Translations under genes and position numbers: made by a program | Notes under the pieces: generated by a model | Seen by the model: only the letters and a program-made list of their open reading frames with translations | Told to the model about the DNA's origin: nothing | The model's database searches: none | NCBI RefSeq assembly: GCF_025244765.1 | Contig: NZ_CP104209.1 | Span: forward strand, 2,238,501-2,302,500 | DNA: 64,000 nt | Source: Empedobacter stercoris | GTDB lineage: Bacteria > Bacteroidota > Bacteroidia > Flavobacteriales > Weeksellaceae | Direction of reading: 5' to 3' | Part shown: positions 59,825 through 64,000 of the stretch, piece by piece | Layout of the letters: every line of letters starts with the position of its first letter | Numbering within the stretch: the stretch's first letter is position 1

Positions 59825-60688
59825 ATGTTGTTGAATAGTCGTAATGTTTATAATAATTTGATTTTTGATGTAGGTATAACTGCATTTGAATTGAATGATA
59901 TCCTACAAATAGAGGAATTGAGAAAAGAGTTATCCGTTGATGAGTATTTTGGAATAATCTGGTCTGGTTCTAAAAAATTTGTTCATAAAATAAATGGAAA
60001 AGAATATTCGATTCCCAAAAATCATTTTCTTTTTATAGCTCCCAATATCTCCCAAGATTTTGTGAAACAAACTACTCGTACTGATGCTTATTATATTGTT
60101 TTTAAACAAGAGTTTTATTCGAAATCAATCGAAGAGAACTTGAAGTTAGAAAATTCTACACTTTTTTCGCGAGATATTATAAATATTGTTGAGAATAGAA
60201 TTTGTTCTGCTCCAATTTTTGAGGCTAATTATTTGCAATATTTCTTTACTGCATTCGAAAATGAATTAGATATGAAGCTTGCTCATAATCTTTTGGAACG
60301 TATTATTATCAATGGTCAAATGGAAACATTTGATATGCAAAGCCAATTTATACAAGATGATTTTGATGTAGAACTTGCGACAAAATTCAAAAAACTTTTG
60401 CAAGAAAATGTCAAGGAAAATAAACAAGTATCTTTTTACAGTGATAAACTTTTTATTACAAAAAGAAGGTTAGATAAAGCAACTCAAATCGTTTTTGGAA
60501 AAACAGCAAAAGAAATGATTGTTGAAGAATTGATGAAAAATGCAAAGATTTTATTAGTCAACTCAAAAATGTCAATAAAAGACATTGCGCTGGAACTCAA
60601 TTTCCTTCAAGAAACCAATTTTACTGCGTTTTTCAAGAAAAACACGGGGATTTCTCCGACTAAATTCAGACAAAGCACTCCGAATTAA
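59825..60688 (+). CDS. AraC-family transcriptional regulator
   Basis: A 287-residue protein. The N-terminal ~170 residues are a cupin-like ligand/dimer domain (NGKEYSIPKNHFLFIAPN). The C-terminal two-HTH AraC domain has KLFITKRRLDKATQIVFGKTAKEMI, SIKDIALELNFLQETNFTAFFKKNTGISPTKFRQ. It lies 170 bp upstream of the fimbria-like genes on the same strand, so it is the most likely local regulator of them. No signal or ligand can be named. The palindrome upstream suggests feedback control. Confidence 0.9.
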   Translation: MLLNSRNVYNNLIFDVGITAFELNDILQIEELRKELSVDEYFGIIWSGSKKFVHKINGKEYSIPKNHFLFIAPNISQDFVKQTTRTDAYYIVFKQEFYSKSIEENLKLENSTLFSRDIINIVENRICSAPIFEANYLQYFFTAFENELDMKLAHNLLERIIINGQMETFDMQSQFIQDDFDVELATKFKKLLQENVKENKQVSFYSDKLFITKRRLDKATQIVFGKTAKEMIVEELMKNAKILLVNSKMSIKDIALELNFLQETNFTAFFKKNTGISPTKFRQSTPN

Positions 60689-60757
60689 ATAGTTAGAAAT
60701 GTCGTTTTTCATCATCTTTTGGTATGATTTAATCTTTTAAGAATAAAAAACAACTTC

Positions 60758-60765
60758 TACATTTG
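60758..60765 (+). promoter_or_regulatory. -7 promoter box (TACATTTG) for the pilin-like gene
   Basis: An exact TAnnTTTG match 93 bp before the pilin-like start codon. It gives a leader of about 85 nt, unusually long beside the leaderless genes in this window. Confidence 0.45.
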
Positions 60766-60858
60766 CAATCGCATTTGAGAATAACCAATCTTAAATATAC
60801 AAACTACCAGATTGTTTAACAAATATTTTTTAATAAATTTTTAACAAATTATAAAATC

Positions 60859-61425
60859 ATGAAAAAATTAGCATTTTTTTTAACAATTTTCTGTGGATTA
60901 GTTTCTGGAACAGCTTTTGCACAAGAGGCAGTGGGACCTAAAACAGCTTCAGCAACATTGAATGTAAAATTATACCCAATTCAAACAATTTTAATTGGAG
61001 GTGATAATATTGTAAACTTAGAATATCAAACAAAAGAAGATTATTCTAATGGTGTTACATCAAACATGAACGACCACTTAATTGTATATAGTACTGGTGG
61101 TTTTGCTGTAAAAGTGAAATCTGATAACGAAAATTTAGAATATACATCTAAAGATGGTAAAGATCATAAAATTGCTGTAAGTACAATTAATTTACAAGCA
61201 AGTTTAGGAACAGGGAATGAATTAACAAAGGCTAAGTTTCCTGAAGTTAAAAATTTAACTAATTCTGATAAAAATTTAATTTCTAGTGCAGTTGGTGGTA
61301 CAGATTTAAAATTCAACGTTGCGTATAAAGGAAGAGGAAACAATGCTTATCTAAATAAATACTACAATGTTGAGAATCCTAATGTTTATACAACTACTGT
61401 AACTTATACAATTGAGGCACAATAA
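60859..61425 (+). CDS. Secreted pilin-like subunit (fimbria-type)
   Basis: A 188-residue protein with a signal peptide (MKKLAFFLTIFCGLVSGTAFAQ). The mature part is an all-beta protein starting ASATLNVKLYPIQTILIG and ending in alternating strands YTTTVTYTIEAQ. It is a lipobox-free periplasmic or exported subunit, unlike type V pilins. Part of it (YQTKEDYSNGV, DHLIVYSTGGFAVKV) resembles the C-terminal half of the two-domain protein at 62272. A terminator at 61439 should make it the most abundant product of the locus. Pilin identity is inferred from context and sequence style. Confidence 0.65.
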   Translation: MKKLAFFLTIFCGLVSGTAFAQEAVGPKTASATLNVKLYPIQTILIGGDNIVNLEYQTKEDYSNGVTSNMNDHLIVYSTGGFAVKVKSDNENLEYTSKDGKDHKIAVSTINLQASLGTGNELTKAKFPEVKNLTNSDKNLISSAVGGTDLKFNVAYKGRGNNAYLNKYYNVENPNVYTTTVTYTIEAQ

Positions 61426-61438
61426 TATAAAAAAACAG

Positions 61439-61471
61439 GAAGTGGTATTGAAAAATATCACTTCTTTTTTT
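61439..61471 (+). terminator. Intercistronic terminator between pilin-like and chaperone-like genes
   Basis: A 10-bp stem GAAGTGGTAT / ATATCACTTC (one G-T) with a 6-nt loop and seven Ts, ending 4 bp before the chaperone start codon. Read-through must supply the downstream genes, giving high subunit-to-assembly ratios. Confidence 0.78.
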
Positions 61472-61475
61472 GCTT

Positions 61476-62282
61476 ATGAAAGTTCTTCGTTTTTTAACAA
61501 TCGTTTCTTTTTTAGCATTAATCATTTCAACTAAGATTAGTGCACAATCAGGTATTTCTGTAAGTCCACCAAGGACTTATTTTGCGTTAAATCCTGGTGA
61601 GTCTGAGCGTAAAAAGATTTTGGTAACCAATGTAAGTGATGCACATACATTAGAGTTGTCTGTTTCTTTTAATGATTGGAAGTATGATGAGTTTGGAGGT
61701 AATGTAGTCTCTGAACCTAATACTTTACCAACAAGTAATGCAAACTGGATCACAGTTTTACCAAGTAATACATTTACACTTTTGCCAAGAGAATCGAAAG
61801 AAATAGAAGTTCTGATGCAAGTTCCTGAAAAGATAAATGCAGAGAGTGTGCATACAGCAATGATGTACATCACGCAAACAAATCCGATCGATGGACAAAA
61901 CAAAAGTGGAGAAAATATTAAAATCTCGATTCGTACAGGTGTCAAAATTTATCAACGGTTAAATATTGCACGTGATACAAATGTAGAGTTTACAAATTTT
62001 GTTTACGATAAAACTGAAAACCGTTTGGTGCTTAATATTTCCAATGAAGGAAATGTTTGGAGCGAAGGAACGATTAGAAATGAAATCATTAATCAAGAAA
62101 ATGGTCAACAAATAAAATTGCAAGATGCAGTTTTTTATAGTTTACCAACTGATAAAAGAATTGTATATATACCATTGCCAAAGGATTTGCCAAAAGGCTC
62201 GTATATTGTTACCTCAACTTTAAGTTTTGAGAAAGATGATCAATTGAAAATTGCTGAATTGACGTTCTCAAATGATAAATAA
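61476..62282 (+). CDS. PapD-like periplasmic chaperone
   Basis: A 268-residue protein from ATG 61476 (MKVLRFLTIVSFLALIISTKISAQ). Two Ig-like domains are suggested: the first with ISVSPPRTYFALNPGESERKKILVTNVSD and FTLLPRESKEIEVLMQVPE, which is the G1-strand/PapD pattern (basic residue, then alternating hydrophobics). The second has IRTGVKIYQRLNI and IYIPLPKDLPKGSYIV. It is longer than classic PapD (~220) and would bind subunits by donor-strand complementation. It overlaps the adhesin gene by 11 bp, so translation is coupled. Confidence 0.72.
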   Translation: MKVLRFLTIVSFLALIISTKISAQSGISVSPPRTYFALNPGESERKKILVTNVSDAHTLELSVSFNDWKYDEFGGNVVSEPNTLPTSNANWITVLPSNTFTLLPRESKEIEVLMQVPEKINAESVHTAMMYITQTNPIDGQNKSGENIKISIRTGVKIYQRLNIARDTNVEFTNFVYDKTENRLVLNISNEGNVWSEGTIRNEIINQENGQQIKLQDAVFYSLPTDKRIVYIPLPKDLPKGSYIVTSTLSFEKDDQLKIAELTFSNDK

Positions 62283-63297
62283 TAATTTGTTTCAGAAAAT
62301 AGTTTCAACAATTACATTATTGTTGACAATGGCAGTGTCTGCTCAGTTTACGTTAAATGCCCACAATAATGGTTGGGTGCAAGTAAATGGAAGTAGTGGA
62401 GTTACGGTGACTAATGTTGTAGCTGTAGAAATGCACATGTCTGGTGCTTTAAATTATAAAAATTGGTCTTTAGTTGCGCGTGTTGTCTCGCCTATTGTAA
62501 ATTCTCAGAAAAAAGAATTTCCTGTCGAAAAACTGAAGCTAAAATTTAATAATTATACAACTTCTCAATATTATTCAGAGAATTATCCTACGCTAAATCA
62601 ATTAGGAGTTATTCAGAATAACATCGCGATGAGTTTTTCTCCAAATTATTTTATCCGAAATTCTCCTTTGACTATTGCTACAACTACAGGAAAATATGGT
62701 GCAATTGTCTTGAATTATGATATTGTGATAGATGCAGGAACATATCTAAATGCTCTGAAATCATGGAACAATTATTCAATTCAATTCGAGTTTTCTTTAT
62801 TGAATGAATTTGGAACCCTGATTGGTAAAAGTCTTTTTCCGATTGAAATGCAAATTAGTCCAAACGGAAATTACGAATCAGCTCCGACGTTTTCTATTGC
62901 GGTCGATGGTTCTGCTGTAAATGCAGAATTGGTTTTCAATACAATACAAGATTATAGAAATGGTGTGAAGAAAGAATATCAAAACGGCTTAATAGTTTCT
63001 TCTGATACTGCTTACGATATTCAAGTTTCGTCGCTTAATCAATATTTACAATCGAGTGATGCACAGAATTTGGAATTAAATTCAATCAATGTTCAGATAA
63101 AAGACATCGAAACAAATAATCTTTCTAAGGTTATAAAACTTTCGAATTACAATCAATCATTGATGACGAATAGTTCTAAAACAGCTTCAAAAAAATACAA
63201 TATTATTTATTCTACAACTCCGTCGGATAATAAAATTTTGAATAGCAAACCTGGGAATTATTCAACTTCTTTGCTGTACACGATTACACCTTTGTAA
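62272..63297 (+). CDS. Two-domain adhesin-like secreted protein with pilin-like C-terminus
   Basis: A 341-residue protein with a signal peptide (SIVSTITLLLTMAVSAQ region). The N-terminal ~180 residues are a unique beta domain (FTLNAHNNGWVQVNGSSG, EMHMSGALNYKNWSLVARV). The C-terminal ~150 residues repeat pilin features: FNTIQDYRNGVKKEYQNGLIV beside the pilin's YQTKEDYSNGV...HLIV, and an ending NYSTSLLYTITPL beside the pilin's VYTTTVTYTIEAQ. A receptor-type domain plus a pilin-type domain is the layout of tip adhesins such as FimH. Binding target unknown. Confidence 0.65.
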   Translation: MINNNLFQKIVSTITLLLTMAVSAQFTLNAHNNGWVQVNGSSGVTVTNVVAVEMHMSGALNYKNWSLVARVVSPIVNSQKKEFPVEKLKLKFNNYTTSQYYSENYPTLNQLGVIQNNIAMSFSPNYFIRNSPLTIATTTGKYGAIVLNYDIVIDAGTYLNALKSWNNYSIQFEFSLLNEFGTLIGKSLFPIEMQISPNGNYESAPTFSIAVDGSAVNAELVFNTIQDYRNGVKKEYQNGLIVSSDTAYDIQVSSLNQYLQSSDAQNLELNSINVQIKDIETNNLSKVIKLSNYNQSLMTNSSKTASKKYNIIYSTTPSDNKILNSKPGNYSTSLLYTITPL

Positions 63298-63303
63298 AAC
63301 AAT

Positions 63304-64000
63304 ATGTTCTTTTCAATTAATTATTTTCGAAGCGTATTTTTTATTCTGCTTTTCCTTGTTAGCGGACAAAACTTACTTGCTCAAACAATAAATAACGGAT
63401 TGAAATTTAGTACAATAAAAGAAGTTAAATTAGAAGATAGCAACAACTTTTCTGTTATTCTTCAATTAGAAAATACAACCAATGATACGATAAATGCTCG
63501 TCTGGGACTTAAAATTCCTTCGGCTATAAGATCGTATTCGCAAGATAATCTTCAAATTAAAATCAATCCAAACAAGAAGGCTTTTATTCCAATGCAATTT
63601 ACGGTGAGTAAATCGCAAATGGCTGGGAAATTAGATTTAGAATTCAATATTATTGATTTTTTAAGTAAAAAAGAAATAGGAAAATCTGTTACTTCAGTTG
63701 TTGTTTTGCAAAAGAGAAACATCAAAATTTTTCCTGTCCAGAGTAATATTTTTTACCGTCAAGAAGGAGATTCTATTCATTATGAATTAAAAGTAATGAA
63801 TATGGGAAATCAAGCCGAAGAAATTTTGTTAACCAATGTACTTCCTGATTTCAGAGGAAGTTATACTTATAATAACAAACGACTTATAGTTGAAGCTTTT
63901 CAAGAAAAAATTGTTCGATTTTCTAAATATGTAGACCGAGATATGATTAAAATTGAAAGTTTTCAGGCAAATGTTTCGGGTTATACAACGACCAAAGATT
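63304..64000 (+). CDS. Large exported protein in the usher position (cut by window edge)
   Basis: ATG at 63304, open for 232 codons to the window end. A signal peptide (SVFFILLFLVSGQNLLAQ) precedes two or more Ig-like/NEW3-type domains (NFSVILQLENTTNDTINARLGLKIP; HYELKVMNMGNQAEEILLTNVLPDF). By position after chaperone and adhesin it could be the outer-membrane usher, with these domains as its periplasmic front, but the barrel, if any, lies beyond the window. Spacing to the adhesin gene is 6 bp. The usher call is an inference. Confidence 0.55.
   Translation, partial: MFFSINYFRSVFFILLFLVSGQNLLAQTINNGLKFSTIKEVKLEDSNNFSVILQLENTTNDTINARLGLKIPSAIRSYSQDNLQIKINPNKKAFIPMQFTVSKSQMAGKLDLEFNIIDFLSKKEIGKSVTSVVVLQKRNIKIFPVQSNIFYRQEGDSIHYELKVMNMGNQAEEILLTNVLPDFRGSYTYNNKRLIVEAFQEKIVRFSKYVDRDMIKIESFQANVSGYTTTKD

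Follow-up and report, generated by a model that had tools for sequence, protein, structure and literature searches.

A predicted chaperone-usher pilus operon in Empedobacter stercoris and related loci across the Bacteroidota

Few surface filaments have been studied as well as chaperone-usher pili. In classical chaperones the Arg8/Lys112 pair holds the C-terminus of the pilin, the usher of these systems having a plug domain of about 80 amino acids (aa). Archaic pili have been reported from Proteobacteria, Cyanobacteria and Deinococcus-Thermus, with a like range in the accessible part of a further source (PMC10104325), and chaperone-usher distributions, in the portions of the sources available, name these same groups and not Bacteroidota. 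Here we describe a five-gene operon in a 64,000-nucleotide (nt) stretch of the Empedobacter stercoris genome (contig NZ_CP104209.1; G000:C1:2238501-2302500), hereafter the window, in which an initial annotation had proposed a chaperone-usher-like fimbrial locus. From the genes, their homology and synteny, conserved residues and predicted folds, we consider it highly probable that the locus encodes a chaperone-usher pilus in its entirety, belonging to a divergent superfamily that spans the Bacteroidota and of which a sister clade assembles the TLP proteins (TLP-1, 9IKJ; TLP-2, 9IKK). Among the titles and beginnings of abstracts listed in a search of mostly open literature, none describes a Bacteroidota chaperone-usher system or an assembly route for TLP, and prior notice elsewhere is possible.

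With the classical pili (E. coli type 1 and P) the locus shares a PapD-like chaperone with Arg8/Lys112 equivalents, pilins with an N-terminal extension, a two-domain tip adhesin and an usher whose large barrel is followed by a pair of C-terminal beta-sandwich domains, as judged from profiles and predicted models. It differs from them in its phylum, in the gene order pilin-chaperone-adhesin-usher, in window-type pilins that are mostly cysteine-free and have no detectable sequence match to classical pilins, and in a window-type usher with two immunoglobulin (Ig)-like N-terminal domains and neither a Pfam Usher match nor a plug-sized insertion. Archaic pili (Csu, CupE) have few subunits, a two-domain tip and pilins donating an N-terminal strand, as predicted for the window system, but differ from the window clade in the chaperone anchor; TLP-type chaperones are mostly without the Arg/Lys pair too. 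The alternative fimbriae (CFA/I, ECP) also stand apart, the window chaperone keeping the classical anchor, and a different anchor is described for archaic and alternative chaperones in the available text of PMC4654587. Type V pili (FimA, Mfa1), the usual pili of Bacteroidota, share the phylum and the presumed donor-strand principle with the window system, but are made from lipoprotein precursors through protease maturation. For Porphyromonas gingivalis, neither ushers nor fimbrial chaperones are described in the accessible parts of two sources (PMC4789730, PMC5789003), and a survey of secretion systems, in the part available, left out the chaperone-usher pathway (PMC4793230).

The operon runs off the end of the window inside its last gene, which was completed from the genome beyond. 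Its features, in window numbering, are:

59825 to 60688, plus strand: AraC-family transcription regulator, the likely regulator of the operon (HTH_18, E 1.1e-15)
60859 to 61425, plus strand: major pilin, 188 aa, signal peptide without lipobox (profile match to the C-terminal half of the adhesin)
60925 to 60978, plus strand: candidate donor strand at the N-terminus of the mature pilin (alternating hydrophobics, ...SATLNVKLYP)
61437 to 61466 (L002:3937-3966), plus strand: terminator-like hairpin between pilin and chaperone genes (13-bp stem, T tail)
61476 to 62282, plus strand: PapD-like periplasmic chaperone, 268 aa (hhalign to E. coli chaperones; Arg33 and Lys157)
62272 to 63297, plus strand: predicted two-domain tip adhesin, 341 aa (AlphaFold2, Foldseek, pilin homology of the C-terminal half)
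About 62344 to 62871 and about 62884 to 63294, plus strand: N-terminal domain and pilin domain of the adhesin
63304 to 64000, plus strand: usher-like protein, first 232 aa; full gene 63304 to 66117 (L002:5804-8617), 937 aa

The open reading frames (ORFs), order, overlaps and signal peptides of the initial annotation all held when checked against the sequence. The adhesin gene overlaps the chaperone gene by 11 nt, and an alternative upstream TTG start for the latter lies at 61470, in a frame that is also open.

The same cassette recurs widely. A chaperone scan, with one genome per species, gave 109 relatives, the best 80 of which were kept as loci, and the order pilin(s)-chaperone-adhesin-usher on a single strand was present in 76/80 of these related Bacteroidota loci, which is far beyond chance; the remaining four are truncated, two by a contig start just ahead of the chaperone (L080, L132) and two by a contig end within the adhesin gene (L074, L121). 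The counts of gene order and of lipobox patterns used pilin-labelled ORFs longer than 165 aa and ushers longer than 850 aa, and one of the 93 pilin-labelled ORFs is really an adhesin fragment (L121). The hosts include members of Empedobacter, Algoriella, Chishuiella, Elizabethkingia, Chryseobacterium, Kaistella, Cloacibacterium, Flavobacterium, Myroides, Arenibacter, Mesonia, Pedobacter, Parapedobacter, Sphingobacterium, Niabella, Leadbetterella, Dysgonomonas, Proteiniphilum and Fermentimonas, genera that we take to span five orders. Within the family of the window's host, the chaperone was found in 64/197 genomes and 10/33 genera. The usher was found in 13/60 relatives, the window's own genome counted. 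The operon is optional, another genome of the same species being without the chaperone; among six relatives without the operon, deoC and the hydrolase gene, its flanks elsewhere, lie about 90 nt apart in two, and the hydrolase was not found in three and is far away in one. Nor is the order universal: a second, divergent Chryseobacterium copy (L028, G032) reads pilin-chaperone-usher-adhesin, with four near-identical pilin ORFs and a chaperone without the lysine of the anchor pair, and L029 has pilin and usher with no recognised chaperone.

The PapD-like character assigned to the chaperone was borne out by profile comparison. Its profile matched ten E. coli K-12 chaperones over 191 columns covering both domains (hhalign 96.0%, E 4.7e-9, hhalign E-values here referring to one comparison and not to a database), with 4.2% for a control against E. 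coli pilins; when the sister clades were added, the match stood at 96.4% (E 1.4e-9) and the control at 4.1%. In the hhalign alignment, Arg33 falls on FimC Arg8 and Lys157 on FimC Lys112, in what we take to be mature-protein numbering, and R33, R153, G155 and K157 are conserved in 80/80 window-type chaperones. By these profiles the chaperone is PapD-family-like over both domains and keeps the subunit-anchoring Arg/Lys pair. It is 96% identical to its E. falsenii counterpart. For pilin, chaperone and adhesin alike, no Pfam or NCBIfam model reached its cut-off, and a PDB sequence search with the chaperone profile returned no chaperone-usher entry.

On reading, the signal peptides of the window's secreted proteins end in A-x-A-Q and have no lipobox, in agreement with the initial annotation of the three complete proteins; a lipobox-like N-terminal pattern is also rare in the related loci (pilins 2/93, chaperones 1/80, adhesins 2/78, ushers 3/75). 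The pilin profile A3 matches the C-terminal half of the adhesin (hhalign 99.2%), the pilin gene and the adhesin being the genome's sole matches to the pilin profile. Pilin alignments show an alternating-hydrophobic N-terminal segment, which the adhesin's pilin domain lacks and which lines up with the beginning of the TLP chain, and 90/93 pilin-labelled ORFs have no cysteine after residue 22. Furthermore, the AlphaFold2 model of the adhesin (mean predicted local distance difference test, pLDDT, 93.6) retrieved CfaE, CfaB and FimH chains, all chaperone-usher adhesins or pilins, as its top nine Foldseek matches in the PDB; in this predicted model a strand at residues 334-340 of 341 closes the pilin domain. 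A PDB sequence search with the adhesin profile returned no chaperone-usher entry.

With the contig followed past 64000, a large barrel was predicted in the downstream protein which, together with the chaperone profile, supports the fimbrial interpretation first put forward. The usher was modelled with AlphaFold2 on the E. falsenii orthologue plus 48 relatives (mean pLDDT 86.0, predicted template-modelling score 0.61). The model has two N-terminal domains read as Ig-like (about 32-134 and 138-249), a barrel region in which 27 strand segments lie between 267 and 731, and two prealbumin-like beta-sandwich domains at the C-terminus; the longest gap between successive barrel strands is 18 residues in this predicted model, and there is therefore no room for a plug domain. 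FimD and PapC chains occupied ranks 1-11 of the Foldseek search against the PDB (E 1.1e-14 to 1.8e-11). On this modelling, the usher is predicted to form a barrel platform in the outer membrane, flanked by periplasmic domains at its N- and C-termini.

At the level of sequence, Pfam Usher (PF00577) had no match in the window usher at E up to 10 and exceeded its cut-off in 0/395 genomes of the phylum (four below it), with a positive E. coli control, and hhalign against E. coli ushers failed for the window clade (3.7%), the TLP-type ushers (2.8%) and all pooled (14%). Only five ushers, four of family f38 and one of f62, match E. coli ushers (hhalign 92.7%, E 4.2e-7); the addition of one f29 usher to these five lowers the match to 76.2%, and they align with window-type ushers solely in the C-terminal domains (96.8%, columns 729-890). 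Since no sequence link was found between E. coli ushers and the window-type barrel, this barrel is not put forward as a proven homologue of FimD, and "usher" is used here for role and architecture, not for Pfam family membership. The only Pfam match over its cut-off in the usher is SpaA at the C-terminus (23.4 bits, cut-off 23.1), with SdrD_B, CarboxypepD_reg and FixG_C below theirs. A PDB sequence search with the usher profile returned no chaperone-usher entry, its sole clear match being NOMO2, to the C-terminal domains. In the phylum, the usher profile matches 73/395 genomes, most via the common C-terminal fold alone, and 11 genomes, the window's own among them, have a single match that covers 600 or more of the 930 positions.

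Some further observations concern ushers elsewhere in the phylum. In the f38 operons (L152-L155), a chaperone and a long usher are encoded together with small secreted proteins that resemble pilins, four per operon except for one in L154. Among the f38/f62 loci (L152-L155, L157), two of the ushers weakly match Pfam Usher, a SPOR domain is present in one usher and a TPR below its threshold in one, and DUF4402 matches one pilin. In Empedobacter sedimenti, the usher gene (L067:10826-13639; same gene in L021) has an internal TAA that divides it into two ORFs of 407 and 521 aa.

The link to TLP came from the pilin. With a profile of 72 pilins (A11), the best two PDB sequence matches were TLP-2 (9IKK, E 0.0076) and TLP-1 (9IKJ, E 0.021), weak yet the best in the PDB, and a small-alignment search also ranked TLP-2 and TLP-1 first; a single-sequence pilin search of the PDB gave no match. 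Each entry holds 16 identical chains, 9IKJ is titled a cryo-EM structure, and both are presumably helical filaments from the CryoSeek pond-water study. Using a 61-residue piece of TLP-2 as query (E up to 0.01), TLP-like pilin genes were found in 31/395 genomes of the window's class (22/197 genera), and twenty TLP-type loci were taken for neighbourhood analysis. The chaperone profile matched an ORF in 19/20 of them, the usher profile in 19/20 and both in 18/20, the two loci with only one (L199, L214) being cut by contig ends; the L208 chaperone is spread over two ORFs. The order chaperone, TLP pilin, secreted protein of about 210 aa and usher was seen in 16/17 loci examined in detail, with the chaperone of L202 beyond the usher; L218, outside these 17, reads usher-chaperone-pilin.

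TLP-1 and TLP-2 match, along their whole length (E about 1e-54), Bacteroidota pilins encoded beside such a chaperone and usher: for one pilin of a TLP-type locus the full-length match to TLP-2 has E 3.4e-54, and the chain in the TLP entries starts at about the predicted signal peptidase I site of the matching Bacteroidota pilin. Moreover, window-type and TLP-type ushers align over 867 columns (hhalign 100%, E 6e-47). Among the 54 rows of a chaperone tree, one group (100/99) is made up of the TLP-type rows and a second (98/96) of the window-type rows with one further Bacteroidota row inside; long branches are flagged in this tree, and its E. coli rows cohere weakly (74/46). The TLP-type clade differs in its pilin of about 240 aa, in an operon that usually reads chaperone-pilin-small subunit-usher, and in the anchor: among 19 TLP-type chaperones, all longer than 200 aa (L159 and L218 included, the two shorter L208 pieces omitted), R33 is present in 3 and K157 in at most 1. 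The sister clade thus appears to make the TLP protein assemblies, and these are probably filaments; as to the exact source species of TLP, we infer rather than observe. Pond-water filaments from the research group of that CryoSeek study could not be conclusively identified, with no matching proteomic or metagenomic sequences, according to the available part of a 2026 review (PMC12967142). As a separate observation, the secreted protein of about 210 aa in TLP-type loci (e.g., L201:6866-7519) is conserved and often has a cysteine near its C-terminus (..FCL.E); it is probably a single-domain tip or initiator subunit.

Regarding expression, a same-strand AraC-like ORF lies upstream in 54/72 loci having at least 4.5 kb of upstream sequence. 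A hairpin follows the pilin gene in 57/75 loci, against 4.3 expected from mononucleotide shuffles, which keep base composition only; five of the 80 loci were dropped, having no pilin longer than 165 aa within reach, and control stretches inside the chaperone gene had a hairpin in 2/80. The hairpin is probably an attenuator giving more pilin than assembly proteins. A scan for sigma-70 promoters showed no excess of promoter-like sites (31 vs 37.4 in shuffles) and was not used.

Taken as a chaperone-usher pilus, the locus would work as follows. Sec would export pilin and adhesin, and signal peptidase I would release them, after which the periplasmic chaperone would lend its G1 strand to each subunit and clamp the subunit C-terminus via Arg33/Lys157. 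The usher barrel would gather the chaperone-subunit complexes and secrete the adhesin first; since its pilin domain is without a donor strand, the adhesin must be the tip. Pilins would come next, each inserting its N-terminal strand into the preceding subunit to build a surface filament, and attenuation at the hairpin 3' of the pilin gene would hold pilin in excess over the assembly proteins. The sister clade of the same superfamily would assemble the TLP proteins.

Three other explanations were weighed. Chaperone-usher-like export might lead to a thin fibre, a capsule-like mat or a surface-bound adhesin instead of a long pilus; 41/76 complete loci have a single pilin-like gene (34 have two and one has three, some extras being weak matches), an usher without a plug-sized insertion may work differently, and classical chaperone-usher systems make non-pilus fibres too. 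We nevertheless regard this as unlikely, given that sister-clade pilins match proteins deposited as 16-chain assemblies and that the hairpin so often found 3' of the pilin gene points to a demand for pilin in many copies. A still poorer explanation, which we hold to be very improbable, is an Ig-like surface-protein complex (e.g., like the Gram-positive WxL/WxLIP) around an unrelated outer-membrane barrel with no donor-strand assembly. Among eight chaperones searched with Pfam, WxLIP_PGBD matched two (best E 2.7e-6) and PapD_N weakly matched two (best E 0.03), and VIA-align, which was not selective, found the usher barrel about equally like many large barrels (MtrB 20.3; PapC 15.3, root-mean-square deviation 5.0 over 368 aligned; FimD 14.7; other barrels 14-15); against it stand the invariant Arg/Lys pair in FimC register, the adhesin fold resembling chaperone-usher tip adhesins, the operon logic and the TLP link. 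A lipoprotein pilus of type V (FimA/Mfa1-like) whose accessory genes are unusual, although type V is the usual kind in this phylum, is hardly credible, with the lipobox-like pattern almost absent, no FimA/Mfa family Pfam match in pilin or adhesin, no P_gingi_FimA match over the cut-off in the whole genome, and both a chaperone and an usher-like protein present. These last two readings were set aside. A sub-threshold P_gingi_FimA match (17.4 bits, cut-off 21.4) was seen in a 985-aa open frame at G000:C1:1635094-1635534.

On the 3' side of the operon (L002:8657-11830, or 66157-69330 in window numbering), the conserved hydrolase gene encodes just 135 aa here (243 aa in L017), and two regions with transposase-like ORFs, identified by reading, come after it, which suggests insertion sequence activity beside the operon. 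A PLSDB search with the window chaperone returned no plasmid at E 1e-5.

In brief, Bacteroidota probably own a chaperone-usher superfamily of at least two clades, the window clade with the Arg/Lys anchor and the TLP type mostly without it, which has plug-less ushers and is the source of the pond-water TLP filaments. Such a divergent version would add a pilus type to the phylum, supply a plug-less usher for comparison with FimD and PapC, and show a classical-type chaperone anchor outside Proteobacteria, and it gives the TLP proteins genes, likely hosts and an assembly route.

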